Shown piece after piece: positions 7,807 to 45,125 of a stretch of DNA of 64,000 nt (the first letter of the stretch is position 1; every line of letters begins with the position of its first letter). Under the pieces are notes generated by a model. It made no database searches. It saw only the letters and a program-made list of their open reading frames with translations, and was not told the DNA's origin. The position numbers and the translations under genes are program-made. Source of the stretch: Morchella semilibera (lineage: Eukaryota > Ascomycota > Pezizomycetes > Pezizales > Morchellaceae); contig WBVU01000012.1 of the NCBI GenBank assembly GCA_009192285.1, positions 62,001 through 126,000 on the forward strand, read 5' to 3'.

Positions 7807-9105
7807 CTACACAGCGGCAAGCAGCTCCTTCGCCTTCCCATACGAGTCATCGTACCGTATCGTCACATAATCGTTGACCGTCACGGGCTCGTGCTTCTCG
7901 CCCTTCCCTTCACCCTCCTCCCCGCCCTCGTCAGCACACCCGGGCAAGCACCGGACCACGTAGTCTGGCTGTCCGGCGTGGAACACGGCGATCGAGTACC
8001 GCTCGCGCCCGGACTTGTTGATGACCTGGTGCAGGCCCGATGCGTAGCGGTCGTTGGTGGCACGGCGCATGCAGTCGCCGAGGTTGACGACGTAGGCGTT
8101 GGGGATTGGGGGTACCTTCGGAGAAGAAGAATTGTTAGTGAGAAGGGCGACGAGAGGGGCCTCAGAGGGGAGAGGGGGTATATACGTCGAGCCAGGACCC
8201 AGCGCTGTGATCAAAGACTTGTAGGCCACCGACATTGTCCTGTAGCAGCAGCGTAACGAACCCTATTATATACGTGACAGCCGCCTCACATCAGCACACA
8301 TCTCCAACAGACCACCCCACCAACCCACACGCACGCCCGCACTCACCGAAATCCGTATGTGCACCGATGCCCCTCTCCTCCGCGGCGGCCGTGTCCTGGC
8401 TCGGATACCGCAGCATCTTGACGGTGGCCAGCGGGTCGTTCTTGAAGTCGTCAAAGTAGTCCTCAGGCAGCCCCAGCGTCAGCGCAATGACGCTGAGCAC
8501 GTTGGCGGCAAGCGCCATCACCGTGCTGAAGTAGGTGTCGACGGTGGCGCGGAAGGCGGCGGGGTCCTCGACGCCCTGCGGGTACAGGTTCGGGCCGCAG
8601 GCGACGCGCTTGCCGACAACGTATGGGTGTGTCGGCGGGTAGTCCACGCCGAAGTCGACGCCCTCCTTGAAGTCTGGCCGGCTGGAGCGGGAGAAGGCTT
8701 GGCTGCGGAAAGGCTCGTAGCCGCGGTGGTAGGTGTTGAGGTCTGGAGAGTTGAGGGTTAGTATGTGGGTATATATACACATATCTGAAGTGGTAGAGGG
8801 GAGGGGGGACCTTTGTCGATCTTGAGCTTCTCCTCCATGGGCAGGGAAAAGAACTTTTGAGCTTGCTCAAACATGGCGGACTGGAGGGACGAGGGGACGG
8901 CGTGGTTGGCCAGCTGGAAGAAACCTTTGTCGAGGCAGGCGGCGCGGACCTGGGCGATCAGGGTCTGTAGGCCGGTGGGGTCGCGGGTGTAGAATGCTAT
9001 TGCATTTTGGACCGGTTAGTGGGTGCAGAGGGCGGGAGAGGGAGGGGCGGGGGGCTTACGAGAAAAGTCGATTACGGGGAGGGGGTTTGCTGCTGGTTCT
9101 GCCAT
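7807..9105 (-). CDS. hxnY: 2-oxoglutarate/Fe(II)-dependent oxygenase, HxnY-like
   Basis: Five exons on the minus strand: 9060-9105, 8811-8996, 8347-8742, 8186-8262 and 7807-8115, giving 337 residues, normal for the isopenicillin-N-synthase-like family. The N-terminal region (LPVIDFS, then GFFQLANHAVP) is the DIOX_N half. The Fe(II) triad is visible as H206-x-D208 (HTDFG), split across the exon 3/4 junction, and distal His264 (HQVINKSG), with Arg274 of RYS for the 2-oxoglutarate carboxylate. Intron 2 has an unusual GTCCCC donor, but phase and the TACTAAC branch fit and the joined protein matches the family. Such enzymes hydroxylate or desaturate small substrates. The assignment to HxnY of the nicotinate pathway comes from the neighbouring hxn-type genes, not from a diagnostic residue. 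A HGATAR-type site lies upstream near 9259. Confidence 0.8.
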
Positions 9106-11908
9106 TGCTTGTAGGTATGTGGATTGAGTTTAACGGATTAAGAATTAACAACAATAATAACAAGATGTGGATTGAGGTGCTCAGTCAGTGGAGAGGAGGG
9201 ACTTATAAGTCTCGTATCGAGAATGAGGGGAGGGAGGAGGGGGCCGAGTTAACGGGATAGATAATCGGCGGTGCCTCATCATGCGCTGATCAGCTCTTCG
9301 TCACTCCGATTGGACACCTCTGGAACAGACCAATCAGCTGTCTTGTACGTGAATTCATGATGTTTCCGAATACGACTACTATTGCGTGCCATACAAAAGT
9401 TAGCCTTGGCGAGTTCTTCTGTGTACTATGCAATAACAGCTGAGTCCGGAAACACTATGAAATTACGAGTATCTTCTTTGTTGCACAGAAGACCATGCAT
9501 AGATAGTGACATATTATATAGCATAGCCATTGTAGCATTATACCACACACCCGCATGGGGTTTCGGGGGTGCGGTAGGTTGTAGGTACTTGGGCGTGAGG
9601 GTAAGTGATTAGAACGACTCCTGGTTGGTAGAACCGCCGGGAGAAGCTTGATCTACTCAGAGGGTGAGCGGGAGTACATACACAAGTATCCACCCTCTAT
9701 GAGTACGAGTAGATCCCCCATAGTTGGCCTGGAGTGCCAAGTTGGCCCCACCCGGACCATGTGCCCCAAGAAACTTGAGAGGCCAAAAGTCCTCAATTTT
9801 ACTACTACCTGCTAAGAGTTATCTCTACAGTCAAATTTGTACCCAAATAGCATATAGAGCGGGTACTGGTAGATGCAATATTTTATATATATTTTTAAAT
9901 TTTCCCGGATTTTTTGATGAGGACCTTGGAAAAGTTCTAATGACTTTTTTCCCCATTCCAGATAGAAACTCTTGGCAGGTCTTATTGGCCCAGCCTGTCG
10001 CACTCACACATTCCCAACCAATTGTCGTCGAGTTCTGATCACTTTGGTACACACGCGAGTACTCTGGCCGATACTTAGATGCAGTCCGTTGAGTGATACT
10101 CTACATGTAGATACCTATCATATCAATCCATGATAGGTAATGATTGGTTTGATTGATTGATTGACTAGCTCAGTCAGACAAAAACCTCGCATCCACGTCA
10201 TCCGGATAGCATCGGATCGCATGTCTCACAACCTCTCGAATGGCCCGTCAATGTCATCATCGGTAAGTAGACAGTTGTGCTTACAGGTCACGTGGACCGT
10301 ACCTGATTGACTTTGACTCCCTTTGTTACCGAGTGAGAGGACATGATGGGTGTGTGTGGGGATCATGGATCATCACTCGGTGATGGTGTGGGAGTGATTA
10401 CTAATTGATTCGATACTTGTGGGAGCACGGTTGGTGGGTGGGGTGTGTGGGAGGCGTAGAGATTGGTCGAGAGACTCGTTTCTTTTTTGTTTGGGCTGAT
10501 TGTAGCAGAAGGGTATATAACTATAATAGGTGTCTTCAGAATGTACGGGGTCGTAAGGATGCATATGTGTGTCTAGAGGGCTGATAAGGAACAACGCAGA
10601 ACTGAAGAACAACGCGGTCATTGTTCTGCTCCCCCCAAACAAAGCTGACCCACTCACCCACACCTTCAGAACAGCCCGTGAACCCGTGCTGCATTGTTTC
10701 GACCATGGCCAGATCAACAACCCATAACACGACACCTCAATAGCCCGATAAATGTGTGTCCTATGCCCTTGCCCCGCATACAGGGGTAGATGCAATGTCT
10801 GGTGTCGGTGTATCAACAAATGATTTTACTTACAATTTTGTAAAACTGCTTGCAAAGTCGTATCCCCTTTTCCCAATTATATGTCCAGAGTTATCAAAAT
10901 GATAGTAATAGTGGTTATAGCATGAATTCAACTCCTGACGGTGGGTTTGTAGACAATCGTTTCCTCACAGGGTTAGGGTTGGGAAATGAGTATGCAAAGT
11001 CGTCCAATTTCCCTCACTACACTGACCCATTCACATGTCCCATATACCTGGCTGCTAGAGACATGAACCGTGTGTGTGGATCTACTCAATGCCTAATAAA
11101 GCTGAGGGAGGTCTTCTCGCGATCCCTTGATTCCCTCCCGTCCATCTATACCTTCTAGATCTAGCTAGAGGGACTACCGCTATATAACCCACCAGCGTGT
11201 CCCCTCTAGATCTCCCCCACATCGCATTATAGCAACTACATACATACGTAGCTAGTCCACAGCCACCAACACCACCTTCCAATATCCAGCAAAGGCTACC
11301 TCATCTCTGCCACTCCCGGAGCCCCGTGTGCACTGGACAACAGATGGGAGGCGCTGTTGTGGGAGGGGATGATCAGAGCATGTGGCCGGTGCAGGAGCGG
11401 GAGTGGTGAGTGTCGTCACGATTGGGAGTTTCTGGGGGCCATGTTTGGCGGGGAGTTATAGGTGTACAGTTATGCCGTGATATGCTTATATGGCATTCAG
11501 AGTCTGGTGCTTGTTTCTCATGTGCATCGCAAATGGATCAATGTGTTTCTCACGCACATACTAACCTGGATGGTGGTTGTAGTAGAGCCTGCATTGTCGA
11601 TCGATCCCCAGCACGAGTGATATTCCGTGAGCCCGCAGATAGTGGGCGCTATTAAATGCGTGGTTCTAGTGAGTGAGCATAAATACATGTTCTGGGGATT
11701 AATGATATATATGTGCTAGAAAGAGTACACACCCTCCACTCTCTTTGTTCTCAGGCACCTCTCTCCTTTCCTATGGATATATAGTTGGGCTGGCTGGGCT
11801 TTACTGATCTACTACGTACGGAATACTTTACACTCACCATATCTACAGCTTCAACATATAGTACGCTGCCTCTCGAATATATATATATATATATATATAC
11901 TTATCCCA
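9106..11908. other. Intergenic region
   Basis: Upstream flank of the 2OG oxygenase and downstream flank of the amidase. It contains one TACATGTA (10102), the GATTGATTGATTGA microsatellite near 10145-10165 and an (AT)n run at 11877-11900. A 102-codon open frame at 10850-11158 lacks a clear start context, introns or family resemblance. No gene is supported. Confidence 0.55.
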
Positions 11909-13906
11909 TTACTTACCACTCGCCATTGCCTCCTCCAGCACCTTCATCCCCGCCAGAACCTTCTCCTCCTGCAATCTCCTCCCCACGACCTGCAGCCCAA
12001 CCGGGTGCCCCCTCATCTCCACCGGATCATCTACCGCCGCCAGTCAGTCAGTACACATTTCCATTCACCAACAGACAGAAGAGGAATCCGGAGGGGAGCA
12101 CTCACACAACTCCCAATTATCAGTATCCATGGCCCCCTTACCGGCATACTCCCGCCTCTCGTCCGTCTCGCATACCCACCCCGCTGGCAGCACTCCCGCC
12201 GGGTAGTCAATGACATTCCACACCTTCGTGTACCCGACCCACCGCGTCCGCTCGTGGCGCACAGCCACATGCGGCACCACCGGCGTCACCAGGAGGTCCA
12301 CGGGCCGCCCGCTCCGCGTCAGCCCCGAGGAGGCCGTCCACCGGTCGAGGTACGCCTTCTGGACGGCCCACTTGCGCCGGTTGAGCTGCCAGTACTCAAA
12401 CACGGAGATGGCGGACCCGCGGGCAATTAGCCGGGAGACGTGCGGGATTGGGGGCTCGCCGCTGGCGGCAAGCGCAGAACGGAGGTCGGTGCCACCATCG
12501 GCGGTGTAGAATTTGTCCTACATGTAGTGTCGGTCAGCCAGCTGTAAGATTCACAGTGACGGCGGCGGCGGCGGCGGGCGGTATCTATACTATACCATGA
12601 TTTCTATCGCCTCCTCGTGCCCCTCGGGCGACCACTCGATGACTTCGTGGCCGGCTTTCCGGAGCGCGGCCACGGCCTCGGCGAGGACCCGCTCGATGGG
12701 CGGGTGCACTCGCACGATGCCGTCGTCGCGGAGGACGCCAAAGACGAGGTTCCGCCGGTGCAGCGTGTCCTGGTAGAGGTCCTCGCGCCAGGGGAGCGGG
12801 GCCACCTTCGGGTCTAGGTGCCACGGCTCCGCGTCGAGGATTGCTTTCGTGATAAGCATGAGGGAGGAGAGGGACCGCGCCATGGGCCCGATCACGGACG
12901 GGTTGTGCTCTTGCCCGTCGGTGCTGACGAGGACGCCCTCGTAGGGGAGTCGGGTGGTCTACCGCAGCCAGCCAGAGTTAGATTTATAGCAATATATCTA
13001 GAGGCTGGAGGGAGGCGGGTGCTCACGCTCGGCTTCAGCCCATACGTCCCCATCAGGGCGCTCGGGATCCTGATACTCCCACCGATATCAGTCCCCCACC
13101 CGACTAGCCCCCCCGCCATAGCCAGGTTGACGCCCTCGCCGCCGGAGCTCCCGCCGGGGGTGAATGCGCGGTCGCGCGGGTTCGTGGTGAGGCCGAAGAT
13201 GTTATTGTTGGTCTCGCACCACATGATGCTCTGCGGGAGGTTCGTCTTTGCGAATATGATTGCGCCGAGCGACGTGAGCAGCTGCACCAGCGCCGAGGCG
13301 GGTGCGAGGGCGCGTTGCCAATGTACGAGACGTACCCGAGCGTGCTGTCGGCGCCGGGGACGTGGAATTGGTCTTTGAGCGTTATGGGCAGGCCGTGCAG
13401 GGGGCCGCGGTGTGCGGCGGGCAGGGCATCGAGTGTGGAGGCGCGGGAGAGGGCGGCGGCGAAGAGGGGCTCGGTGAGCGTGTTGGTCTGCTGGAAGGTT
13501 AGTATTGTATATATTGCAGGCGGGTGCTACTCACGAGCTGATGGATGATAGTGGCTCTTGACAGCAGGAGTAATCATATCAGTATTCATACTCTAGCATA
13601 TATAGTCCTCACTATCCACCAAATAGTTATGGCATACCGCTTGATATACGCCGTCAGCACCTCCGTGCACGTCCAATCCCCGCTCCTGAGCCTCTCCAGC
13701 ACAATGGCGGCATCACCCTCCTCCGTTATCGCCCGCTCACGCCCCGTCAGCACGCCAGAACCGGCCTTGTCGTTGAAAAAGTCCTGTACGCACCGCTGCT
13801 CGGGGGGCGGGAGTCGCTCGGGCGGGAGGAGGTAGGGCGCGAGCTCTTGGTGCTGGGAGGAGAGCTTTGCGGCGACGAGGGCTTGCCAGGGGATTGCGGT
13901 GGTCAT
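11909..13906 (-). CDS. hxnN: Amidase (acetamidase-type amidase signature family), HxnN-like; apparent 1-nt frameshift
   Basis: Exons on the minus strand: 13638-13906, 13535-13556 (22 nt), 13027-13490, 12596-12958, 12142-12517 and 11909-12030, about 539 residues as in fungal acetamidases. The Ser-Ser-Lys triad of amidase-signature enzymes is present: Lys136 in ITLKDQF, the GGSSGGE loop and DIGGSIR. The C-terminal GHPVGLQVVGRRLQEE block is typical. Inside exon 3 the frame that encodes LGYVSYIGN does not continue into the frame that encodes ASALVQLLTSLGAIIF; one base appears to be missing between about 13295 and 13331, in CG-rich sequence. A GTCTCG..GTGCAG intron of 50 nt would restore frame but would delete the conserved YVSYIG region. 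In the hxn pathway the amidase releases ammonia from the linear amide after ring opening. It is divergent from the FAD monooxygenase at 14510. Confidence 0.8.
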
Positions 13907-14509
13907 TGGGGGGGTTAATTGGTATAGGGAGGGGAGTATGTATTGTATTGTATGTACTGTAGCTAGATATATAACTATACTCACCACCTCCACCTCCACC
14001 TCCACCCCGCAGGAACGCAATTAATTGTAACCCACTCCGGGGTCAGTCAGTAATCTACAGTAGGTATGTACATGCTGTACTCGTGCACTAGATACTAGAT
14101 ACTCTTATCATGGGGAACGTGGATGGTGTGGTGGGGTGGGGGAAGAAGCTTGTCTTATGTGCGTGGGGGGTAAATGATCGACATGCCAGAAAAGGACTGG
14201 TGGAAATGATTGATCCGCAGCTAAGCGGGGGGAGGGTGGAACACGACCAGTGAGAGGTCCCTGCCTGCCTGCCTGCATACAGCATACATACAGCATAGCC
14301 GGTGCATAAATTGGAGTAGAGCACTCATGTATGTTGTATTCTACCTGTGGGATCATGCGGGTTGTAAATTAAACTGTCAGGTATTTACTTAATGTTACTT
14401 GTCCCCTGGAGTACAAACCACGTATAAGTTGTGATCTAATATCTTCAACTATAGTTAATACATCTCTATCCTATCTACTCTACCCTACTCTACATAGACA
14501 GTGCCTGCA
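13907..14509. promoter_or_regulatory. Divergent promoter region of amidase and FAD monooxygenase genes, with a GATA site
   Basis: The 603 bp between the two start codons must serve both divergent genes. It contains a consensus TGATAAG (minus strand, 14104-14110) next to two more GATA cores (about 14092-14101). This is the HGATAR type bound by AreA-class nitrogen regulators. Site function is inference. No TATA box stands out. Confidence 0.5.
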
Positions 14510-16617
<2,108 letters not shown>

Positions 16618-19569: not shown

Positions 19570-19620
19570 AACACACACACACACTCTCTCTCTCACTCAC
19601 ACACACACACACACACACAC
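19570..19620 (+). repeat. (CA)n/(CT)n microsatellite
   Basis: Alternating CA dinucleotides interrupted by a CTCTCTCT block. Simple-sequence DNA with no gene nearby. Confidence 0.85.
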
Positions 19621-25530: not shown

Positions 25531-27335
25531 ATGCAGTCGATATTTAAGCAGAGACCCCCGCGGAAGTTCTTCTGCGACTTTCAGGATTGTGGGAAATCAT
25601 TCACGAGGGCAGAACATCTCCAAAGACATGAGCTAAATCACCGTGACTCACCAAACACCTGCGCTAGATGCTCCGCACACTTTGCCCGGCCAGATCTATT
25701 GGGTGAGTTTTATTTTGTTTTTTTCTTTCAGTGTTTTTCCCACCAAACCCAACCCCCTTAAGTGTCAGTGTAGTATCTCTTATATTAAATAGAATCACAT
25801 CTTCTACTTACTAATTTTGGACCTTGATCGGTGAAACAGAAAGGCATATGGAACGGCACGCGCAGAAAGACAAGGAAGCAGGCGGTGAAGGACTCGGGAT
25901 TCTGGTCACGAGGAAACGGTGCTGGCGTGATGAGAACGGGAATATCACGACGAAACGGCCGGCATCAAGTATGGCCGCCGTGGGCAAGGCTCTTGAAGCT
26001 CAGCGGCAGAGGAGGGGCGATAGCAGCGAGGATAATGGGTCGAGTGACCCGAGGTCACCGGCGTACGCTGGATCATCGATGTTGAGCCGGGGGCGGGGGG
26101 AAGCCAGCGCTACCCACGAGGAGAAGAAGGTTGTTGATAATGCAGGATACCGGGAGTTCCAATATGAACAGCAGTTGGAGATACAGGACCGAAGCTTGCA
26201 AGGAGGTAATTTCATCGTGTCTCCGGTAGCCCAACAACAACAGTCAACCCTTTACTTGGACCCCAATCCACCGGAGATTACTACTACAGCTGTTGAGACT
26301 CTTAGCCCGTATCAAGAGGACTACAAACCACTCTATAATACACCAGAATTACATTTCAGTTCTGGTTTTAATTGGATATATGGCCATGGAGAAATGGAAC
26401 CACCAGGAGATACCCAAGAAAACATTGATATGGCCTTAAATCGGGATATGAGTACTGGCCATATTAGCACGCCTCTTTCACTAGGGCCGGACTACATGGA
26501 AAGCCCGATATTGCTAACACCCAACGACCAATATCTTAGTTTTCCGGCCCAGCCACCGCAGCCACCGCAGCCGCCACCACAACAGCAGCAGTTTATCAAA
26601 ACGGAGTTTCCCCAAGGAAACATGCTTTTTCAACCACATTTCTGTATTTCCAATGGCCCTTCAGTTGCTATCAGATCAGCGGTTGTTAGTGGTTATACGG
26701 ATGATTCACCTCCTGCCTTGACACACCGAAGAAGTGCACAGGCTGCGGAAAACTGTCATCCACACCAACAAAGGCATGTTAGGACACATAAATTCAATTC
26801 CCCAAAACCCTTCAAATAATTCAGGATCTCACTGCATCCAGACTATTCATATCTCCGAAAGTCCGGCCCCGTCACGGCACCCATACACACCCGCAACGAT
26901 CAGGGAGGACACACGAGAACAGATCCTCGAATTCATAATACGAGTAACGACACGACCCACCACTGGAAAGTCACCGTTCAGCTGGGAGGGCCCCTTGCTC
27001 TCTCTCCCCCCACCCCAGACATATCTAGATCTATTTTTTACTCGGTTTCACTCCTCGCATCCATCACACTCACCACTCGACCGGCAGCCGTTTGATCCAA
27101 ATTCTGTCGATATTTTGTTATTGTTGGGTATGTCGATGCTTGGTGGAGCTTATATAGAGAAAGAGGCACATTACATGACTATACTAGTTTATAACTTGCT
27201 AAAACGTATCTTGACAAGTGTAAGTTCTCCCCAATTATGCTACTGGAGTTCTTTCCATTTGAAAACGGGCTCGAAGAACTAACCCAGGAGGAAAGTTTCA
27301 TGCTACACCTCATGAGCCATATTGGGTACATATAG
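25531..27335 (+). CDS. hxnR: C2H2 zinc-finger transcription factor with partial fungal-specific TF domain, HxnR-like
   Basis: Likely exons are 25531-25702, 25840-26777, 26842-27219 and 27288-27335, about 511 residues. Two adjacent C2H2 fingers span residues 14-65 (first: FFCDFQDCGKSFTRAEHLQRH; second ends DLLERHMERH across intron 1). After a long Gln/Pro/Ser-rich region the fungal_trans middle homology domain begins near QTYLDLFFTRFHSSHP and continues to AHYMTILVYNLLKRIL. Intron 1 (GTGAGT) and intron 3 (GTAAGT, CTAACCCAG end) are strong; intron 2 (GTTAGG donor) is weak and only frame demands it. The domain stops about one third of the way in, and T-rich 3'-flank sequence begins by about 27450, so the protein is much shorter than known HxnR-type factors. 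Without intron 3 an alternative frame reads IMLLEFFPFENG, resembling the next part of the domain. Expected role: pathway activator of the hxn genes. Confidence 0.65.
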
Positions 27336-29337: not shown

Positions 29338-29374
29338 GGTTGTTGTTGTTGTTGTTGTTGTTGTTATTGTTGTT
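29338..29374 (+). repeat. (GTT)n microsatellite
   Basis: About eleven GTT units with one ATT interruption. Simple-sequence repeat; a TACATGTA octamer follows 8 bp later. Confidence 0.85.
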
Positions 29375-29482
29375 AATAGGGTACATGTAGTAGTTGATCA
29401 TGCATGCTACTGGCACGGAGCGCACTTCTTTTCCACGCACGAGTGATATCGTATGACCGACCTTTCGGCTAGAGCTGGAAGG

Positions 29483-29512
<30 letters not shown>
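29483..29512 (+). repeat. Poly(A) run of about 30
   Basis: Uninterrupted A30 tract in intergenic DNA. No target-site duplication or coding remnant was seen that would make it a retroposon tail. Confidence 0.85.
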
Positions 29513-29514
<2 letters not shown>

Positions 29515-29677
29515 AAGGCTTGGCTGCCGTTACCCGTTGTGAATAGAATTGCAACCTGACCTATAATATGCAACAACCTTGAGATATACCAATATCTTTT
29601 TTTAATTGTGGAAACGAGCTGTTCGTGAACGTGACACGGGGAAGGGGGCAAGGTTACCTTAGACAGTACCACCGTAT

Positions 29678-29863
29678 CGATAAGCCTCATCATGGCAGGG
29701 GTCAAGTGGACTATCCCCGTTTCGGTCTTGAGACGTTACGGTTGATTGATCCCCAGAATGATAGACATCATCGCAGAGAGGGGATCGATAAGGGAAGGAA
29801 GGAATGGTGACGCTGGGTACTATGGTGATTGGTAGAGTTGAAATAATTTCCTTTCACTTATCT
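29678..29863. promoter_or_regulatory. Three GATA-factor-type sites upstream of the molybdenum hydroxylase
   Basis: CGATAAG occurs at 29678-29684 and 29786-29792 (plus strand) and AGATAAG at 29857-29863 (minus strand), 230-420 bp before the start codon at 30097. They fit the HGATAR consensus of fungal nitrogen regulators (AreA class). Nitrogen control of hxn genes is known in Aspergillus; its presence here is inferred. Confidence 0.5.
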
Positions 29864-30096
29864 TAATTGGAGGGGTGCCCCGAGAGCATACATGTAAGAA
29901 GTAGGTTGGCAGGCTTGGAGGTACTAGCTAGGTGGCTTTTCGAGACGAGAGCTGAACTATGCATGTGTGCTGTAAGGTCTCAAAAACCGGGCATTATTCG
30001 GATTCCTACTCCTTCTTTACTGAGCTTCTCCTCCTTTGCTCAATCAGTCCTCCCGATCAACTCTTACAACAATCATCACGATACCTATAACTCACC

Positions 30097-33000
30097 ATGT
30101 CTTCAGCAGGAGGATCACTACTACTAGTACTACCCGTGCCTCCCTCCCCTTCTAATGCAGCCTCAGTTCCATCTCAAAACACAGCCACCCCCGTATCTCC
30201 TTCCGCAGCTCTAACTCCATTGATCCAACGCACATTTACTACCTCCACTCTCATCTTCTGGCTTAATGGCACTAAACTCACTCTCAACAATGTCGACCCC
30301 GAAGCCACGCTTCTCGACTTTATCCGTTCTCAACGGGGACTCAAAGGCACCAAGCTCGGCTGCGGCGAAGGTGGCTGCGGTGCTTGCACTATTGTTGTCC
30401 AGCAGCGCAGTAGCACTACTGGGAGGATTGAACATCTGAGCGTCAATGCGTGTCTTGCACCGGTTATTAGCGGTATGTAACACTAGCCTCTTTGTCTTGC
30501 CTCCTATTGGCTGACTGTTGAATAGTGGAGGGGAAACACGTGATCACGATCGAAGCTCTCGGAAACGCAGCAAATCCGCACCCGCTGCAGGAGCGGATTG
30601 CGAAACTGCACGGGTCGCAGTGTGGCTTCTGCACTCCGGGAATTGTGATGTCGTTGTATGCACTGCTGCGTAATGCGTACGATTCCGAGACCAGAACGTA
30701 TAGGTTGAGCGAGGAAATGGTAGAGCTAGAAGGCGCGCTGGATGGTAATTTGTGTAGGTGCACAGGGTATAAGCCGATATTAGACGCGGCGAAGAGTTTT
30801 GTGAGGGAGGATCTTGGGGGTGTTGTGGCCGAGAGCCCGAGGAGAGAGGTAAATGAGGGTGCTGTAGCTGGTCTGGGCGGGAATTGGACGGCCGCTGAGG
30901 CGACGGGATCGTGCGGGCGGCCAGGTGGCTGCTGCAGAGATAAACTGACGTCACCATCTTCTACCTCCTCAAGTGATGTTGATTCGGCTTCTACGGATCT
31001 TACGGAGGAATTAAGCGGGATACCAGTATCAGGATCGACATACGGCGCCCCCCTAAAGACTTCCAAATCCGAGGGCCGATGTCAGCTCTCTTCGGGGGCC
31101 TCAAAGTGTGCCACAGAGGCCGAGGTACTATCAGGACCGAAAGAGGGAAAATATTCCTTCCCACAGTTCAAATTCAAAACATATGAGCCACACTCAGAGA
31201 TCATTTGCCCCCCTGGCCTACATAAGCATGTAAAACAGCCTATCTGCTTCGGCAACTCAAGAAAAATTTGGTTCCGGCCAACAACCCTTGCCCAGCTGCT
31301 CGAGATCAAGGATGCTTTTCCATCAGCGAAGATAGTAGCTGGATCATCAGAGGTGCAGGTTGAGATTCGTTTCAAGCATCTGCAGTACGCTGTTGTCGTG
31401 TATGTTGGTGATATCGAAGAGCTTAAGTCATTCACCGTCGACGAGGAAGCAGGCACAGTAATCATTGGTGGCAATACCTCCCTGACGGTTGTAGAGCAGG
31501 GGTGTTTGGAATGGTACCGAAAGCTTGGTAAGAGAGGCATGGTTTTAGAAGCGGTTAGAAAGCAACTGAGGTATTTTGCTGGTCGACAGGTCAGTCAGTC
31601 ATTTATCCCATGTCTGCATTATGTACTCTAGATAGGTGCGGCATGCTTATGATTAGTATTTAGATACGCAATACTGCAACCCCAGCGGGGAATATCGCTA
31701 CCGCATCCCCCATATCAGACCTCAACCCGGTACTGGTTGCCTCAGGGACAATCCTTACCGCCCAGTCTCTCTCCAAGGGATCATTCGAGATCCCGATGAC
31801 AGACTTCTTTATTGGCTACCGCGAGACTGCCCTGCCAGCAGACGCGGTTATCACGCAGCTTACTATTCCACTGAGCCCGGTTAATAGCCGCGTTGTTGTA
31901 AAGGCCTACAAGCAATCCAAGAGAAAGGATGATGATATTGCAATTGTTACTGCAGGCATGAGGGCTAGTCTTGATGAGGATGGACTAGTCAAGGATGTCT
32001 CGTTAGCTTATGGCGGGTAGGAGACTAGCCCTAACCCTTCATTGAGCGAGTGCTGATTGATGATGGCAATACAGTATGGCACCAATGACGGTAACGGCGC
32101 GAAATACAGAAGAGGTTTTGAGGGGTAAGAGGTGGTTTGATAAAGGTGTTTTGGAGTTAGTGATGAGCGCCATGGAGAAAGATTTCAATTTATCGTTCAC
32201 AGTTCCAGGGGGAATGCCGACTTACAGAAAAACACTCGCCTTCTCATTCTTTTTCCGATTCTGGCATGAGGTTGCTGCTGAGATAGGCCTTAAAAATGAA
32301 AATGAGCAGGTTGATGACGAGCTCATTAGTGAGATTCATAGAGAGGTTTCGACAGGGTCTCGGGATAATGAAAATCCATATGAACAACGCGTTGTCGGCA
32401 AGCAGATACCACATCTCTCGGGATTGAAACAGGCGACAGGGGAAGCAGAGTACATCGATGATATCCCAAAATATGATGGGGAGTGCTATGGTGGATTAGT
32501 TTTATCATCTCGAGCCCACGCGAAGCTCATAAAGTGATAAAACCCTTTCCTCTTAATGACAAGGGGTTTGAAAGCGCTAACATTAGACAGGGTTGATTTT
32601 ACCCCGGCTCTGGAACTCCCTGGTGTTCTTGGATATGTCGACCATCACGATATCCCGGAAGACTGCTCCTATTGGGGCTCCGTGGTGAAGGATGAGCGCT
32701 TCTTTGCCAAGGATGTTGTAGAATGTCATGGACAACCAATCGGAATGATATATGCAGAGACGGCGGCGATTGCTCAGGAAGCTGCGAAAGTGGTCCACAT
32801 TGAGTATGAAGATTTGCCCATGGTTCTCACAATATCCGAGGCGATTGAGGCAAACTCATTCTATCCTTACGACCATCAGCTCAAGCGTGGTGGCCCAACT
32901 ATTGAGGCTTTCAAGGATTGTGACTTTGTCTATGAGGGTACGACAATGATAGGCGGACAGGAACACTTCTACCTCGAGACAAACGCAGCGCTTGTTATCC

Positions 33001-34813
33001 CCCGACCTGAGGATGGTGAGATGGAGGTTTGGTCAAGTACACAAAACATCATGGAGACACAAGAGTTTGTATCCCAAGTGACAGGGGTCCCGAGCTCTAG
33101 AATCGTAGCAAAGGTGAAAAGGATGGGTGGTGCTTTTGGTGGTAAAGAGAGCAGATCCGTTCAATTGGCTTGCATTCTAGCTGTTGCGGCGAAGAAGTCA
33201 GGAAGGCCTATGAGATGTATGTTGAATCGTGATGAGGATATGTTAGTTATCCCTAGACCGCTCCATTATTATTCTCTAGCTGATTTCCCAGGATGATTAC
33301 TGGCCAGAGAAACCCCTTCCAAGCCCATTGGAAAATCGGTGTCTCTAAAGAAGGCATGCTTCAAGTTCTCGATGCAGATGTCTATAACAATGCCGGATAT
33401 TCTCGGGATTTGAGTGGCGCCGTTATGGACCGTGCCCTCACTCACATTGATAACAGCTACTGGATTCCGAATGTTCATGTCCGGGGACATGTCTGCAAGA
33501 CGAATACCCACAGCAATACCGCATTCCGCGGATTTGGCGCCCCTCAAGGACAGTTCATCGCCGAGTGTATGATGTCCGAAGTGGCAGATGCTATGGGGAT
33601 TTCTGTAGACAATTTCCGGCAAAAGAATCTCTATAAAGAGGGCCAACGCACGCCATTTCTTCAGGTAATTGAGGACTGGCATGTGCCGCTCCTCCTTGAG
33701 CAATTGCGAAAAGAGGCCGACTACGACCGTCGTGTCAAAGAAGTCGAGGAATTTAATAAGACTCATAAGTGGAAAAAGCGAGGAATCTGCTTAATACCCA
33801 CCAAATTTGGCTTGTCTTTCGCCACCGCCGTTCACCTAAATCAGGCTGGAGCTCTTGTTCATATTTACCACGACGGCTCTGTCCTGCTTGCTCATGGCGG
33901 CACCGAGATGGGACAAGGACTTTATACAAAGATGTGCCAGATAGCCGCTCAGGAGCTAAACGTTCCTATGGACTCGATATTTACCAGCGAGACAGCTTCC
34001 AACACTGTGGCAAACACTTCACCGACTGCTGCTTCCTCTGGTAGTGACCTCAACGGCATGGCAGTTCAAGATGCTTGTAGGCAGCTCAACAAGCGTCTGG
34101 CACCATACCGAGAAAAATATGGCCAAGATGCGCCCATGAAGCAGCTTGCCCACGCCGCGTACATTGATCGCACAAACCTTTCCGCCAACGGCTTCTACAA
34201 AATGCCTACCGTTGGCTTTACGTGGGGAAACTATGTAGACCCCCTCCCAATGTACTTCTATTTCACACAGGGCGCCGCAATATCCGAGGTGGAGCTTGAT
34301 GTTTTGACAGGAGACCATACTGTGCGCCGTGCGGATATCAAGATGGATGTTGGCCGCTCAATCAACCCAGCCATCGATTACGGGCAAATCGAGGGGGCAT
34401 TCGTGCAAGGACAGGGACTGTTCACTCTTGAAGAGTCTCTGTGGAGTTCCCGCAGCGGCGAGTTGCTAACCCGTGGCCCGGGAACTTACAAAATCCCCGG
34501 ATTTTCGGATATACCACAAGTGTTCAATGTGAGCATATTGAAAGGTGTGCAATGGGCCGCGCTGAGGTCAGTACAGTCGTCAAAGGGGATTGGCGAGCCG
34601 CCGTTGTTTTTAGGAGCCACCGTGTTGTTTGCATTGAGAGAGGCGGTAAAGGCGGCAAGAGCGGAGATAGCAGTAGAGAAGGGAGTTTTAGCGTTGGGGT
34701 CACCGGCTACTGCGGAAGAGTTAAGGGTGGCCGTAGGAGATCGGATTGTGGAATGGGCGAGGGTAAAGAAAGGCAAGGGAGAAAAGGGGTTTTTCTCAGA
34801 AGCGCAGGCTTAA
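30097..34813 (+). CDS. hxnS: Molybdenum hydroxylase of the xanthine dehydrogenase family, probable nicotinate hydroxylase HxnS
   Basis: Exons 30097-30472, 30526-31589, 31664-32016, 32075-32533, 32591-33241 and 33292-34813 give 1474 residues; every junction phase agrees. Order: Ser/Pro-rich N-terminal extension (about 50 residues), [2Fe-2S] domain I (Cys89, 94, 97, 119), [2Fe-2S] domain II (CGFC, CRC), a Ser-rich linker, FAD domain (VAGSSEVQVEIRFK, GRQ then AGNIATASPISDLNP) and the Moco domain. Catalytic-site residues of XDH are kept: Gln in GGQEHFYLE, Glu in FGGKESRS, Arg in FRGFGAPQG and the base Glu in GIGEPPLFLG. It oxidises an N-heterocycle with water as oxygen donor and NAD+ as acceptor. 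Sequence alone cannot separate purine dehydrogenase (HxA) from nicotinate hydroxylase (HxnS); the adjoining catabolic genes favour HxnS, making 6-hydroxynicotinate. It is longer than typical family members because of the extension and linker. Confidence 0.85.
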
Positions 34814-36307: not shown

Positions 36308-36811
36308 ATGAAATTTCCAGTCATAAAGTTGAAGCCCACAACAATCCGGTTGATTTATATCACAAGCTTCACTATGGTTGTCGTTTTATTCATCATCCTC
36401 TCCAGTTACCTCATTCGCAGAAAGTTCTACGACCCTTACACAGGCCCTGCCTGGATCATAAATTGCAAACCTAATGATAGCAGCCCCCTCTTATCCGACG
36501 CCGAAGCTGCTATCTCTGAGTTAATGACCGGGTCCGTCGAGAACTGCAGATCCGAAAACCTTACCACCATTATACACTGCCACAAAACAGCATGTATCTC
36601 ACGTAATGAGCATCCTGGGTTAGAGAATGGGTGTAGTTTCTATGCCAACTGGGCGAAGAAGATCCTTGACAGGCGGGAGTGCTGGACATCTGATGATCAT
36701 GAACTGAGAGTAGAGGGGAGGGTAATGGCAGGCGGTGAGGGCGATCTAAGGGTGGATGTACGCGTTATTAGCAGGGCTTCTGCGAGCTCGATTCTGAATA
36801 CCTTGTCCTAA
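36308..36811 (+). CDS. Small Cys-rich protein with N-terminal membrane anchor (paralogue of 52688-53187)
   Basis: A single exon encodes 167 residues. Residues about 13-34 form a strong hydrophobic segment followed by RRKF, so it is more likely a signal anchor than a cleaved signal. The outer region runs YTG...INC...SSPLLSDAEAA..., then CHKTACIS, GC, WAKKILDRREC and a hydrophilic end, with six Cys. The same order of motifs occurs in the protein at 52688-53187 (YTG, C, SPLIEDARAAA, CHGTACIS, WARQVVEKPEC), so the two are clearly related. This resembles families of small secreted fungal proteins of unknown function. Anchored versus secreted forms may differ in location. Confidence 0.75.
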   Translation: MKFPVIKLKPTTIRLIYITSFTMVVVLFIILSSYLIRRKFYDPYTGPAWIINCKPNDSSPLLSDAEAAISELMTGSVENCRSENLTTIIHCHKTACISRNEHPGLENGCSFYANWAKKILDRRECWTSDDHELRVEGRVMAGGEGDLRVDVRVISRASASSILNTLS

Positions 36812-38837
36812 TAAAGGGTTAAGATTACATGCCTATCATCTCTTTTCTTGGATAGATCTAGTTTTTCTTTCATTCATGAGGTGTGCTTCTGTGTATGCGG
36901 TAGAGCCGGAAGCGCTGGGCCCGCGGCCCGGGCGTTAGTATATACAAGGTACTGATAATCCATAATAACATCGAGCTAGAATGCCAGCTTAATACATTTA
37001 TTTTTTTTCTTTTTATTTGACTCCTGTGAAACACGGGGTATACATATTTCCCTACTATTTTCGTTTAAACGCGCCATATCTCAGTTCAAGTTGTTGAATC
37101 TCGACTAAGCGCGGGAAGAAATGTAGAGGCTGGATTAGGGGTTCCTATTAATACTGTCGTTTTATACCGGTCCAGAGAAACTGCATATAGATTTATGATT
37201 CCAGTTTGGTAAAAGCAACCCGCCGTAGCAGGCACACCAATCCCCTGGGCATTGACCCACCATCCGAGTGATACGCTGTGATCAGTAATTCTCTCTGAGG
37301 GAATATCAAAATCCAAAACCTTATTATCAGCATCATGATGACTGAACCTAAATAAATTGATTAGTATTCCACATATCACCTATATATATGACCAATTAGA
37401 GCCTTCTCCGGTCAGTTCGCCTGGTCTGGTTAGTAAGATGATCTATCACACTCCTCCCAGGATCCAAAAATACAACCAAACAGAATACTTTCATAACACG
37501 CAAAAGTCCAAGTTTTGGTTACTTTCTCGCCACTCTATTTTAAACTCTTTAACCTTTCTCACCGAAAAATTCGATCTCTGACTACCTCCCCCCGACCACT
37601 CATTGTTTATATGTCCTCCACACCTCGCACTGTGGTTCCGCCTTGATATACATACGAGGTATCTGAAAGACTTGGCAGAGAGTGTATATACCGGTGTGTG
37701 TACCGTACGTGTTCGGAAAGACCCTGACTGGCGGCCGCTCCGAGTGTTCCGGGCTTTTCTCCTCTCTGTATCCGAGTGACTGTTGCTTGAACCGTCTTCG
37801 ACCTCGTATCGCAATGTAAGGTCCAGTGTCGTGTGTAGAACCGTTGATCGGGCCGTATGTAGAATTGGTGGGAACAGACCGGCACCTACGCCGGCAATTA
37901 CATGTTGGACAAAGTCTTTCTAGTTTGGGCCATGTACCTACCAAGTCCTTAGCATTAGCTGTTGTGGGTCGCACAACTGATTAGTCAGGTATATATTATT
38001 GACAGATAAAGCCTGAAGAACAAATCAGAGCCTATAACCCGGAATCAGGCTTCAGTTTGTTGACAGATCAATTGTGTTACGGTGGTGTTGGACTAGCAGG
38101 CGTACATCACGATACACGGGCCGAGATCCCCCTTCACAACCTCAGCCTTCTTCTGCCTGTCTCAAAAGACAACATCTCCCTTTAATCTTCCGCAACAACA
38201 ACTTCACCCCAACCCTCAACATCCCCTGCCACTGTGTGTACGGTAGAGCCCTTTGTGGTTGATCTTGGTTCAGGTGGAAGCTGATGGCCGATAAAAGCAG
38301 ACGCGTATAATGATATTGCTTTTGTCACCGAGACGTATTTTCAGCTCTGGGCGCGCCACATCGATCACTTTATCTGTCGTTTCAGGAGGTGGTATGTACT
38401 ACTACTCCCACCGCCTGGGGAGCATGAAATCTTCTACTTGGCCCATAGCCTTTCTGAAGACAACCTGCGAAGAATATATAGCCCTGGTATCACTAATCAG
38501 GACATCAAGGCCTTTAAGACTGGTTGGGAGGCGTCCTAAACGGAGACCGATAGCTTAAATAATACTAGCTCTTGGGCGGAGATGTGTTTACGATCGAAGA
38601 CTAAAGGTGGCGACGCCTACAGCATCAAGTGGAGCGGAGAGAATAAAACTATAAACAGACTAGAATACACAATATTGGCCAAGTGGTTCCCTCAGAGACA
38701 CCCGCCCATCAGCCTGGCAACAACTATCAAGAGTCATCTACACAAGCATTAGAGACGCAAAGATGTCACAATACAGACCTTATCGTTGTACTCTCACGCG
38801 GCACCTCTGCCTTTGGCTTTGGCCAGCATTTATCAAC
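36812..38837. other. Intergenic region with possible uncharacterised exon
   Basis: On the minus strand, 37086-37349 reads as an open frame ending TTFLPALSRDSTT-like, preceded by a good splice acceptor (TACTAAT branch, TTTAG). A candidate first exon with ATG near 37601 could join it (GTGAGA donor). The product is unrecognised, and further frames up to 37974 are ambiguous, so I do not call a gene. The remainder is featureless. Confidence 0.3.
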
Positions 38838-40383
38838 CTACAGAACCAACCCGTCAGCAAATGATATACACCCCGCCTTAGCACGAGGGGCTGGAAAGAT
38901 CACCTCTCTTTCACATTGCCACCCCAACAACCACGGTCCCATATCGGGGTCCCTCCAAGCGAGCGCCTCCCCGGGCTCCGTCGGGGACATCTTCATCTTC
39001 CGATCTCTCTCTCGCTGCTCCTCCCCATCATGAAGGTGATACAGTTCCTGCTGAACATTTCCTCTCTCGACCACTCTGGCTGTGCGTTCCCTTCTACATG
39101 CTTCGTACACGGCTAATGCCATGAATACATCCTCGCGGGACTTGATACGGCCCAGACACTCACCAAGCACCGCCGCGTCTTCAAGGGCCATACCCGCACC
39201 TGAGGCCAAGTACGGAAGTGTTGCATGCGCAGAGTCGCCGAGGAGAACAAAAGTCCCGCTGGGGTGGTACCAGCGCGCTGGAGAGTGTCTGATCAAGAGC
39301 TTCCACTTATGCACTTGTGTGCAAAGGGAGAGCAGCTTGGGAATTCTAGCCAGAGTTAATAACCTGAATGATGGATGAGAAATAGAAGAATTGGTGTTAT
39401 ATACCGGGGTCCCAGTCTTTAAAGAGGGCTCGCATTTCTTCGACGTTACCCTCGACGGTTGTAGCGCCGCCGTCAGGGATGTCATCGGGTACTAGGAGTA
39501 CCATGTTAAACAGTTTACCACCCTTGAGCACATAATTTACTATCCCACGATCGTCAGCAATGTCCCCATTCCTATCGCGCTCTAAAATATAAAACCGGCA
39601 TCCCGATCATTTACCCCCACCCTGTTTTCGTTGATAATAAGATACCAACCAGCAAACTTACCAGCATGGCAATCCGGCCCTAGCCAATAGTTGACCTGCG
39701 GATTTTCTACAAAGCCCCTCAGCTCCGGGTCCTTCTTCATCTCCTCTGTGCTTAACAACACTCTATAAGCAAGATCCCCTGTTCTCACTGGCGGATCCTC
39801 TCCGCCTACCAAAACCTCCCTCATCCTGCTCGCGACACCATCGGCCCCCACAACTAGATCAGCAAACATCCTCCTACCGTCTTCCAAAATCGCCGTGCTT
39901 CCCTCTGCACCAATATCAACATCCATAACCCGCGCCTGACATATCACCTTCGCACCCAGCTCTGCTGCACGCTCTAATAAACACTTGTGCAGCCCGGCTC
40001 TATGGAAGTCCCAGAACGGCGTGCCGTACCGCTTTGCGGCGGCGTGGAAGTCCATAGATGATATGTGATTCCCCTTCCAACCGAGCATGTTGACCTGTTT
40101 TGGCATGGTTGCATGCTCCATTAATGAGGACTCGAGGCCCCACGAGATAAGTAGGCGGGAGGCATTGGGGAGGATCTGGATACCCGCGCCAATCTCGCCA
40201 ATAGTTGTGGCGCGCTCGAGTACAGTTACGTTGTGACCAGCTATACAGAGCGTGATGGCGGCGGCGAGGCCGCCAAGGCCCGCGCCGACCACAATTATCT
40301 ATAAAGAGGTTAGTAGGCGTGTAGAGAAGTAGAGAGAAGGATGGATGTACGTTGAGAGTAATGGGAGATTTGCTGTGTGACAT
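38838..40383 (-). CDS. hxnX: FAD-dependent monooxygenase, salicylate/6-hydroxynicotinate hydroxylase type, HxnX-like
   Basis: Exons on the minus strand: 40351-40383, 39662-40298, 39405-39539 and 38838 to about 39345. The FAD fingerprint VVGAGLGGLAA starts near residue 14; the DG motif is LVVGADGVASRMRE; the GD motif is FVLLGDSAHATLPYLASGAGMALEDA. Intron 2 (GTAAGT donor, CTGAC branch) joins GPDCHA to VNYVLKGGKLFNMVLL, as expected for the family. The last junction is off by one base. Exon 3 ends WDP in phase 1, whereas both usable acceptors need phase 2. One extra C in the CCCC run at 39406-39409 would give WDPRIPKLLSLC, matching the family. HxnX decarboxylatively hydroxylates 6-hydroxynicotinate to 2,5-dihydroxypyridine; that substrate is inferred from the neighbours. 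Confidence 0.8.
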
Positions 40384-41966: not shown

Positions 41967-43145
41967 TCAAGGCTTCACTTCAAGCTCTGCTGTTATCTTT
42001 GGAGCCGGGGGCTCAATGTCCTCCTTTTTCTTCGTCATCATCTCACCAGCGGGGCTGGGAAGCATTGCACCCGCTGGATACGGGTTCTTGCTCTTGAAGT
42101 CGTCACAGATCTGCTCCATCGTAACCCACTCCACGCCTTCATGCTTGTTTATATGCTCAATTATCCTTTTACCCCACGCCAGTTAGCCATCTCTCGAGAC
42201 TCTATAGTACCTAGTGGAGTAATGGAAATTCATACCTTTCGTGCATCAATAGTACATGCGGCCGCCCCGACACATCTGGGTGTATCGTCATCGGGAAAAT
42301 AAACTCATCGTACTCCCTGTAGAAGTAGTCGAAGTGGTCTCTCCAGATGTCCTCCACATCCCTGGGGTTAACCCAACCCCCGCCATTGCCGCTCCCCTTG
42401 ATGAACATCATTGGCGGCAGATCATCAATGTACCAGCTCCCGGGTATCTCCACGAGCCCGGTCTCCACGCCCTTGCTCAACGGTTTCATCCAGTGCTCCG
42501 CGGGCTTGGTGTAGTCGATCTTGGTCCACGAGTCCCCCTTGCGTAGGTAGTACGCCTGACAGTCGTGGTGCAACATTGAGTGGTCGTACTCGATCCCGTA
42601 CTTGAGGAGCAGCTCGGTGCCCTCCTCGGAACACTCCCACCAGGGGACGACATTTCCGCGCGGTGGCTTGCCGCAGAACTCTGTGATGAGGCGGAACGAC
42701 TTGTCGAGGACGTCGCGCTGCTGCTCCCAGGTCATGTCGACCGGGTTTTCATGAGAGTAGCCGTGGAGGCCTCTGTTTGTTTTGTTATGTGAGCTCAATC
42801 GTAACTAAGGATGCGGGATGAGGGTGCAGTGTACATTTCGTGACCAGCATCCCTGATCATGGCACATTCCTCGGGAAACGTCTCGAGCGAGTGCCCGGGA
42901 ATGAACCACGTTGTTTTCATGTTGTATTTCTCAAATAGCTTGAGGAGACGGCGGACACCGATTGTGCCAGCCCAGAGGCCACGCGAGATGTCGCTGGAGG
43001 AGTCTTCACCGCCGTAGGAGCCGAGCCAGCCGGCAACGGCGTCAATGTCAATGCCATAGGTGCAGAGGACTCCTGGATTTGGCGTTCTGGTTAGTACCTA
43101 TTGAAGAGGGGGGAAGGGAGGAAGAGAAGTACGTTTTTTGCCCAT
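41967..43145 (-). CDS. hxnM: Polysaccharide-deacetylase-fold hydrolase (HpPgdA/PuuE-like), probable cyclic imidase HxnM
   Basis: Exons on the minus strand: 43133-43145 (only 13 nt), 42835-43072, 42236-42772 and 41967-42165, giving 328 residues with consistent phases. The CE4/NodB-type fold is seen from [20 protein letters not shown] (metal-binding Asp), [15 protein letters not shown] and the metal motif HGYSH, to [12 protein letters not shown] and the C-terminal catalytic region around [19 protein letters not shown]. This subgroup is not a classical chitin deacetylase: it lacks a signal peptide and resembles HpPgdA/PuuE hydrolases that act on small amides and ureides. HxnM of Aspergillus, as I recall it, belongs to this fold and opens a cyclic imide; that assignment rests on the surrounding hxn-type genes. 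Confidence 0.82.
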
Positions 43146-43375
43146 TGTGGATCAGTGGAGTGTAGCGGGGAGAGAGTAGTGTGTGGAGGGGACTGAGTTT
43201 AGTGAATGATTGTAGGGGCCATGATCACAGTATTTATAGATTCAGAAAGAGTATATAACTACAGCTTCAGCTATCCATTCCTGCACAGATACGGGATGTG
43301 AGACTGAGACTGAAGGCGAGTTGAGTTTCCCCGCCATAGAGTAGAGTATGTGCCGGGATATGATTGTTGATATCA

Positions 43376-43395
43376 CTTATCGGCCTATCGATAAG
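43376..43395. promoter_or_regulatory. Inverted pair of GATA-type sites
   Basis: CTTATCG (43376-43382) faces CGATAAG (43389-43395), forming a 20-bp inverted arrangement about 230 bp upstream of the hxnM-like start. A further TGATAAG lies at 43770-43776, about 430 bp upstream of the hxnW-like start. Paired HGATAR sites are typical AreA targets; binding is inferred. Confidence 0.5.
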
Positions 43396-43524
43396 AAGTA
43401 TCACCCCCGCTGCACGAACAAGACTTCTAGGCTTGCCCCAGTGGGGAATTCCGCTCGCAAATTTGTACATACTCTACGAGGACTGTGTCAGTTGGTGTAT
43501 TCTGGCGTTCATGGCTGCCTTTTT

Positions 43525-43559
43525 TCTTCTTCTTCTTCTTCTTCTTCTTCTTCTTCTTC
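43525..43559 (+). repeat. (TTC)n microsatellite
   Basis: About eleven uninterrupted TTC units preceded by T5, in the hxnM/hxnW intergenic region. Confidence 0.9.
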
Positions 43560-44203
43560 CTCTCAATTGGCGGTGTAGAGTAAGTATTCGCGTCGTTCGA
43601 TGTCTCGTGCTCGAGTGAGACTTAATTGAGGCGCCACCATGTATGTACCTTTTTGAAATTCACCTATGGTATACGTATATACGATATATATATACATGTA
43701 TATATCTACTGTGGTGAAAACTGCATTCCGCAGGGGCCCCGTCTAGAGCCCACTCTAGATCTCATCAATTGATAAGAGTCGTTTAGAAGTGGGTATTACT
43801 GGTTATGTTGTAGACATTCCCGACTGCCTTGGGCTGGGGCACAATTTCATCTAATAGTGGCCCTACCGTCTCGTTTTATTCTTTCTACCCTATGTATTGT
43901 ACTGGAGAAGCCAATGAGCCAATTAACTGCTCTGATGTATGTACAATTAGGTTGGACTTACTTGACAGGGCCCTCATGTAACGCAATTATACTCTAAGCA
44001 GTGATGGGCAGCAATCACCGCCGTTACACCCATCTTGGAATAACATGCATGAAGCTGCATGAACGTAGAGTAGGACCAGAAGGTGGGGAAGGTATCATAA
44101 CGGGAATATATAGCGACCTACCCAAGTAATACGGCAGCTCAGTATCAAAATCCCCAGCTGTATTTCTCTCATTGGATTAGGTATATTATCCAAACCCATC
44201 ACA

Positions 44204-45125
44204 ATGACCTCCAGCGTAAGTATAATCTGTCCACAATCCTCGAAACCCCCCGTCTCACCACGCCCTAGTTCTCCCTCAAAGGCCGCACCGCACTCATCAC
44301 CGGGGGAGCCCGCGGCTGTGGGCTCTCCTTCGCCGAGGGCCTCGCCGAGGCCGGCGCCGACATCGCAATCTTCGACATCATCCCCCCCTCACCAGCCTTC
44401 CACGAGATTGCCGCCACGCACAACGTCCGCACCGCACACTACCACGTCGATGTCTCCTCGCCCACCTCGCTGCAAGCGGGGTTCGACCAGTTCGTAAAGG
44501 AATTTGAGGGGCGCCTCGACATCTGCGTGCCAACGGCGGGCATCAACAAAAACGTCAGCTTCTTGGAAACGAGCTACGAGGAGCACCAGAAGCTCCTGGG
44601 GGTAAATGTGCTGGGCGTGTACCACACTGCGCAATTGGCGGCGGGGCAAATGGTGAAGAATGGGACGAAGGTGGGGTCGATTATTGTCGTGGCGAGCATT
44701 GCGAGCTATATGGCGATCCGCTCGCAAAAGTCGAGTGCGTACTGCGGGACAAAAGGGGCGGTGAGGGCAATGGTGCCGGCAATTGCGGCGGAGCTGGTGG
44801 AATATGTTTGTTCCCCCCCCCTTCCTCCCCCTTTTTTTCTCTTTTACTACAGATATATGGTTTAGTTTGGAGGTTTGGATGTTGACGTGAAGTGGTGGTG
44901 GTGGTGAAGGGGATCAGAGTGAATAGTATATCACCAGGGTACGTACGAACGGAGATGACCGCACCATTCCCGCATCTGCTGGAGAGCTGGAAGGGAGAGA
45001 TTATGAATGGAAGAGTGGCCGAGCCAGAGGATATCAGGGGAGCGTGCGTGTTTTTGGCTAGCGATGCGAGTAAGTATATGACCGGACAGGACCTGTGTAT
45101 TGATGGTGGGGTTACAAAGTGGTAG
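44204..45125 (+). CDS. hxnW: Short-chain dehydrogenase/reductase, HxnW-like
   Basis: Exons 44204-44215 (12 nt), 44269-44805 and 44910-45125 encode 254 residues, the usual length of classical SDRs. The cofactor motif TGGARGCG begins near residue 14 and the Asp of IAIFD suggests NAD(H) use. Further motifs are the NAG-equivalent TAGIN, the catalytic Ser of VVASIAS, and YCGTK (Tyr-x3-Lys). The C-terminal GIRVNSISPGYVRTEM and CIDGG blocks are typical. Introns have GTAAGT and GTTTGT donors. In the hxn pathway HxnW is a ketoreductase acting on a ring-derived intermediate; this role is contextual. Sugar or polyol SDRs look similar, so the substrate is uncertain. Confidence 0.85.

Follow-up and report, generated by a model that had tools for sequence, protein, structure and literature searches.

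The question raised by this stretch of Morchella semilibera DNA (64,000 nucleotides of contig WBVU01000012.1, called the window below) is whether a morel keeps a nicotinate catabolic (hxn) cluster in a single locus, and in what state its genes and its regulator, HxnR, are found. An earlier note on this DNA had listed eight genes of hxn-type families; all eight are there, from 7807 (the hxnY stop codon) to 45125 (the hxnW stop codon), in the order hxnY, hxnN, hxnV, hxnR, hxnS, hxnX, hxnM and hxnW (Table 1). Based on our results, we are confident that the locus represents a morel hxn cluster, probably inherited within the Pezizomycotina, and that its HxnR retains little of its regulatory half. 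The models of hxnS, hxnV, hxnW, hxnM and hxnY are complete and open, with GT-AG introns, while hxnX, hxnN and hxnR are recognisable with one frame break each. The exon models of hxnN, hxnX, hxnM, hxnW and a transporter gene of the major facilitator superfamily (MFS) were built by hand, replacing poor automatic ones. The donor of intron 2 in hxnY, GTCCCC, is unusual; a reading that uses a 38-base GTGTAT intron instead is likewise open. The genome searched comprises 56,756,124 bases in 23 contigs, with the window on contig C11.

The gene of the XDH family is the one for which published residues separate the nicotinate hydroxylase HxnS (PHII) from HxA (PMC5746545, section 2.2). We found two XDH-family genes in the genome, one in the window and one on contig C6, and matched their diagnostic residues to the published positions by eye. 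The window protein reads FATAVH, with an extra Ala behind the active-site Phe and a His replacing Phe1013, where the C6 paralogue reads FTAIF; its MOCO pair is Ser-Gly (ASSGSD) vs Ala-Ser (ASASSD), it has Pro for His954 (GQRTPF vs GQTTHY) and an aliphatic residue for Phe417 (RVVVKAYKQ vs EFIRAYKQ). All the diagnostic residues are of the HxnS type, and those of the C6 gene of the HxA type; judged by them, the window protein is HxnS and not HxA, as had been proposed. No stop interrupts its 4.4 kb frame, and the closest named protein, from M. conica, shares 92% identity with HxnS. Of the 2582 matches to HxnS the best 120 were listed: FATA is present in 118 of these (without the His in two), FSTA in one, and the last is the XDH of an insect.

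For HxnX the closest named protein is again from Morchella (P0163 of M. importuna, 86% identity), and identity to an A. lentulus protein annotated as 6-hydroxynicotinate 3-monooxygenase is 61%; the relatives listed in the protein search are 56-84% identical. The His and the Tyr, four residues apart, that bind 6-hydroxynicotinate appear in HxnX as CHAVNY once an intron is spliced out, and both columns are invariant in the seven proteins aligned. In three other fungi, HxnS and HxnX homologues sit under neighbouring locus tags, FE257_000165 and FE257_000162 in A. nanangensis, CNMCM5623_007453 and CNMCM5623_007451 in A. felis, and Hte_001396 and Hte_001394 in Hypoxylon texense, and this ties HxnX to hxn clusters. 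Homologues of both proteins also lie on contigs of the same size, 543,316 for Tuber indicum and 2,497,050 for Tricharina praecox, and these names and lengths suggest that hxnS and hxnX are linked in other Pezizales too. A reading of hxnX that skips an exon was rejected, as it would lose a segment present in all six aligned homologues. At the C-terminus, SVL is predicted from the last exon (38766-38837) and AVS stands in the M. importuna model, while the aligned Aspergillus and Tuber relatives end ARL, SRL or AKL; the peroxisomal signal (PTS-1) of HxnX may be altered in Morchella.

The arrangement of the remaining genes adds to this. hxnN and hxnV are divergent, with 603 bp between their starts, and so are hxnM and hxnW, with 1058 bp; both couples are given as conserved across classes in PMC8478523 (section 2.3). 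The other conserved couples named in that section, hxnS-hxnT and hxnP-hxnY, are not present, because no hxnT or hxnP was seen here. Proteins named in PMC9304392 as structural homologues of Hxn enzymes (HpPgdA, NicC, 3-hydroxybenzoate hydroxylase and thymine dioxygenase) recur among the relatives in the Protein Data Bank (PDB): HpPgdA (3qbu) stands on top for HxnM with 452 bits, and NicC (5eow) for HxnX, 3-hydroxybenzoate hydroxylase (2dkh) for HxnV and thymine dioxygenase (5c3p, 5c3q) for HxnY are found without being the top match. PMC8478523 describes HxnM paralogues, presumably unrelated to nicotinate, as extant in all investigated Dikarya; in this genome hxnM was found as a single copy.

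Several of these families have many fungal members, and the locus could in principle be a chance neighbourhood of unrelated paralogues. We regard this as very improbable. The HxnS diagnostics, the HxnX relatives and the two conserved couples speak against it, as does the low identity of the other genomic copies: the genome searches gave no close second copy of hxnM, hxnR, hxnX, hxnN or hxnV, and the other matches are partial only, at 26-69% identity for HxnX, 32-48% for HxnN and 36-42% for HxnV. The earlier note had held a chance grouping to be unlikely, and the single copies of HxnM and HxnR, with the weak and partial matches for the other three, bear this out.

The same note had reported no hxnT ene-reductase. 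No further hxn gene was seen by eye among the frames of at least 100 codons in the 8 kb before and the 10 kb after the window. Genome-wide, five candidates were scored and three PF00724 genes found, on contigs C23, C4 and C19. The closest PDB entries are YqjM-like NADH-dependent flavin oxidoreductases for the C23 gene, which the C19 gene resembles by eye, and the FMN-binding protein 7fev, then NADPH dehydrogenases, for the C4 gene. None of the three is a candidate for an OYE1-type hxnT, in an exon-by-exon search that an intron-rich gene could escape.

Table 1. Genes and shared promoter regions of the locus (positions in the window).
Feature	Position	Strand	Description
hxnY	7807..9105	-	2OG-Fe(II) dioxygenase, 5 exons, 337 aa, open; Pfam DIOX_N, 2OG-FeII_Oxy
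hxnN	11909..13906	-	amidase, one-nucleotide frame break ~13280-13320; ~542 aa when the break is read across
shared hxnN/hxnV promoter region	13907..14509	.	6 GHGGGG (putative HxnR sites), 2 HGATAR (AreA sites)
hxnV	14510..16617	+	phenol-hydroxylase-type FAD monooxygenase, 5 exons, 605 aa, open
hxnR	25531..27282	+	two C2H2 fingers and Fungal_trans remnant; frame broken directly behind 26780; HLKTGSKN at the end of the remnant frame
hxnS	30097..34813	+	nicotinate hydroxylase (predicted), XDH family, 6 exons, 1474 aa, open
hxnX	38766..40383	-	6-hydroxynicotinate monooxygenase (predicted), 5 exons; one-nucleotide break at exon 3/exon 4 junction (39405/39345)
hxnM	41967..43145	-	cyclic-imide hydrolase (predicted), polysaccharide-deacetylase fold, 4 exons, 328 aa, open
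shared hxnM/hxnW promoter region	43146..44203	.	6 GHGGGG, 4 HGATAR
hxnW	44204..45125	+	SDR ketoreductase, 3 exons, 254 aa, open
candidate hxnZ, MFS transporter	61381..63440	-	MFS_1 and Sugar_tr, 9 exons, 521 aa, open; 16 kb from hxnW

Three genes of the cluster are interrupted in the assembly. In hxnX, one base is left over from exon 3 where exon 4 calls for two, stops follow the junction in the spliced model, and no complete reading frame was obtained; the M. importuna protein is uninterrupted at this site (DWDP-RIPKLL). In hxnN, YVSYIGN and ASALVQLLTS lie in different frames within a conserved stretch, with Amidase matches on either side of the break, and a query read across it aligns through in PDB amidases. 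In hxnR, the Morchella or Morchella-like proteins P0121, P0123 and P0124 follow a single frame as far as 26780 and a second one from 26785, 26812 and 26803, respectively; an intron that would join the two parts (26685-26841) was dropped, as each of the three proteins switches frame at ~26780. With hxnX, hxnN and hxnR interrupted in this way, the strain may be unable to run the full pathway.

Whether these breaks belong to the fungus or to its assembly can be argued both ways. We see an even chance that all three are assembly errors and that the cluster is intact and functional in this strain: each break is a single nucleotide, slips are plausible because short C runs adjoin two of the three (the breaks in hxnX and hxnN lie in or beside them), and P0163, which represents a 14-member cluster, is unbroken. 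Against such errors, hxnS, hxnV, hxnW, hxnM, hxnY and the MFS gene are without a break, the HxA gene on C6 gives successive tblastn blocks without an obvious one, and a sequencing slip does not explain the erosion of HxnR; these genes are not a random choice, so no break rate is derivable from them. The cluster could instead be decaying, with real frameshifts in hxnX, hxnN and hxnR after selection on the pathway ended, a prospect that we place only slightly below even. That three of the eight genes are broken and that the second half of the regulator evolves fast would fit decay, but the wholly open frame of HxnS with its high identity to M. conica, the open frames of hxnV, hxnW, hxnM and hxnY, and the almost invariant fingers of HxnR would not.

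The regulator had been described as a two-finger C2H2 protein with a fungal_trans domain, and this description stands for one half of it. The N-terminal fingers are present, the first above the Pfam cut-off and the second below it but aligned; of the Fungal_trans domain only about the first quarter is kept, too diverged to be called (no PF04082 match at E 0.01). We searched for related proteins with a 464-residue query, which admits ~255-812 residues (0.55-1.75x); 8000 candidates were scored and 42 proteins returned, the first 24 ranks all fungal or unnamed and the later ones animal zinc-finger proteins or unnamed. Pfam was scanned, at E 0.01, on 24 of the 42 and on the window protein, and both the search and the first Pfam scan used the model with the intron that was later dropped. 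At that threshold PF04082 gave no match in M. snyderi P0121, P0122 and P0123, and P0124 has a sub-threshold match to positions 5-58 (16.4 bits, cut-off 23). P0121 has 686 residues owing to a longer N-terminus, and P0123 and P0124 end HLKTGSKN, as does the window protein. The HxnR-like proteins of Tuber (T. magnatum, borchii, melanosporum, brumale and aestivum; 587-611 aa) also have the fingers and the start of Fungal_trans and end in about the same region, but, unlike in the morel, the start of the domain is still recognised by Pfam (in four of the five, positions 1-57 or 1-58 out of 262; in T. magnatum, 1-106) and the tails differ in sequence. Coverage is 1-58, 1-59 or 2-58 in seven metagenome proteins, P0142 and P0144 either stop short of the domain or reach only its start, and the HxnR of A. 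avenaceus (800 aa) has the full domain (1-261). Five annotated Tuber and four Morchella or Morchella-like proteins thus end within or before Fungal_trans, and an HxnR without most of its regulatory half appears to be common to other Morchella and to Tuber. Compared with M. snyderi, the window protein is identical at 110/112 positions in residues 1-112, at 121/224 in the middle and at 61/136 in the C-terminal part, a contrast that points to selection on DNA binding, with the rest relaxed or retuned.

Our tentative reading, which we would not yet call probable, is that the HxnR of morels and truffles is a short regulator with constrained fingers, in which most of Fungal_trans is missing, and with it the second-patch region (565-639), in which A. 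nidulans mutations, according to the hxn papers, render HxnR constitutive. It could also be an artefact, with the domain resuming after an intron and with annotations and single-exon metagenome calls that end too early. A GTAAGT does stand at the point (window ~27220) past which the Morchella sequence no longer resembles full-length HxnR, the M. snyderi model splices there into another frame, and its tail matches the window right at the end of the remnant (27270-27353, E 1.8e-4); most metagenome proteins start just past the first intron, as single-exon calls would, and the search by design returned nothing above ~812 residues. We nevertheless think an artefact unlikely: apart from the M. snyderi tail, five tail queries against 27200-30096 gave nothing better than E 0.039, the intact HxnR of A. 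avenaceus matches nothing on contig C11 past its residue 405, and the five Tuber proteins, each with a name of its own, stop within or close to the same region. A genome search with a Morchella-like query found no second copy of HxnR. Two places where the missing half might have lain, C23:1397933-1399506 and C1:894584-895921, were rejected, being just 26-32% identical and, by eye, separate C2H2-type factors. An HxnR-related factor at C23:1394500-1401500 has a C-terminal half (27% identical to A. avenaceus HxnR over 474-799) and reads NYAWLF, resembling the NYNWLF of HxnR.

Shared control of the genes was approached through motif counts in seven promoter regions (6221 bp, that of the MFS gene included), with 35,556 bp of other non-coding DNA of the window as control. 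HGATAR occurs 33 times, or 5.3 per kb vs 2.6 per kb elsewhere, and 5 of 300 shuffles reach this count; a rate twice that of the other non-coding DNA is at most suggestive of AreA control. GHGGGG occurs 23 times (3.7 vs 2.9 per kb), a count reached by none of 300 shuffles. By homology to the A. nidulans pathway, HxnS would convert nicotinate to 6-hydroxynicotinate, and HxnX would convert this to 2,5-dihydroxypyridine, to which HxnV would add a third hydroxyl. Some other ene-reductase would substitute for HxnT, HxnW would oxidise the saturated ring, HxnM would open the ring and HxnN would release the nitrogen. HxnR would still bind DNA through its intact fingers, with most of the regulatory half lost.

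Several points weigh against reading the locus as a working hxn cluster under a shortened HxnR. HxnV, HxnW, HxnN, HxnM and HxnY were assigned by Pfam (all five), PDB relatives (HxnV, HxnN, HxnM and HxnY), genome search (HxnV, HxnN and HxnM) and position. The frame breaks in hxnX, hxnN and hxnR weaken the case for function. No hxnP was seen in the window, a genome-wide search for it not having been made, and hxnZ is a candidate only, not established: the MFS gene at 61 kb is present, as had been claimed, is open and has one main paralogue (31-48%). GHGGGG was set aside as evidence, because it is just 1.3-fold above the other non-coding DNA of the window. As to the regulator, full-length HxnR of other Pezizales would fall outside the length range of the protein search, and the ceiling of ~812 residues biases the picture to short forms, although the Tuber and Morchella entries are nonetheless real. 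The metagenome protein P0143 reaches position 131 of PF04082 (1-131). The Leotiomycete-named P0138-P0141 (337-438 aa) have the same finger block and, as in HxnR, the following GGEGLGxLxTRKRxWRDxNGN stretch, but unlike morel HxnR are without any PF04082; they would be short relatives outside the Pezizales, or another family with the same finger block. The earlier note had called the cluster near-complete, and this is right insofar as 8 of 11 genes are present; hxnT was not found, hxnZ is no more than proposed, three genes are frame-broken and the regulator is truncated.

Large repeat-rich gaps had also been described. The one gap compared with the genome, 19400-24900, does not fit this: just 16 stretches, none longer than ~74 bases, match elsewhere, and at the search sensitivity used the gap is not repeat-rich. 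Between hxnS and hxnX, within the cluster, lies a small protein (36305-36811, +) that shares a CHxTACIS motif and 35% identity over 114 residues with another at 52688-53170 (-); Pfam gave no match for the former, nor for another frame overlapping the latter. Beside the cluster stands a patatin-like phospholipase (46006-47778). An alpha-amylase-like gene (53660-55863) has one exon just below the Pfam cut-off and a long Ser/Thr-rich stretch, and a further amylase- or glucosidase-like frame, seen by eye, starts 8.3 kb past the window.

How does this locus compare with known hxn systems? In A. nidulans, as the earlier note had stated, the genes are split over several loci, namely three clusters, 1/VI, 2/VI and 3/I (PMC5746545, PMC8478523, PMC9304392). 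The gene families are the same, with HxnS and HxnX supported as orthologues in the morel, but A. nidulans has the three loci, an HxnT, and an HxnR of 865 aa with Fungal_trans at 394-668 (~270 residues). A single-locus arrangement is indeed present in the morel, and such compactness is already published: PMC8478523 describes all 11 genes in one locus in Cyphellophora europaea and Hymenoscyphus repandus. The C. europaea genes lie on one contig and include hxnT, hxnP and hxnZ, whereas in the morel no hxnT or hxnP was seen, the gaps reach ~9 kb, the regulator is truncated and there are three frame breaks. hxnT is absent, as in the morel locus, from the clusters of Aspergillus section Aspergillus (PMC8478523). 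With compact and hxnT-less arrangements both published, the compactness of the morel locus is not new in itself, and the short regulator may be the part that a specialist would not expect. The main texts of PMC8478523 and PMC5746545 do not name Morchella or Tuber, and their supplements may hold Pezizomycetes clusters or a short HxnR. In the open-access literature we found no paper on a Morchella nicotinate gene cluster or a truncated HxnR, and nothing on hxn or nicotinate in Pezizomycetes beyond the hxn papers already known.

In conclusion, a compact hxn cluster with both divergent couples is now placed in Morchella, a member of the Pezizomycetes, a class called basal in PMC5746545 (2017) and described as having few public genomes in PMC8478523 (2021), and this supports an old origin of the arrangement. 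Inducer sensing by HxnR has so far been approached via point mutations in A. nidulans; the series from A. avenaceus (800 aa, full domain) through Tuber (~600 aa, domain start) to Morchella (diverged remnant) offers a natural comparison for the inducer-sensing part of the protein. If the short form is real, it could activate the hxn genes without inducer, or could instead be a DNA-occupying repressor or a partner-dependent factor. It would then amount to a lineage-wide change in the switch of a catabolic cluster, beside the apparent loss of hxnT, whose product is, in the hxn papers, one of the enzymes making the inducer.

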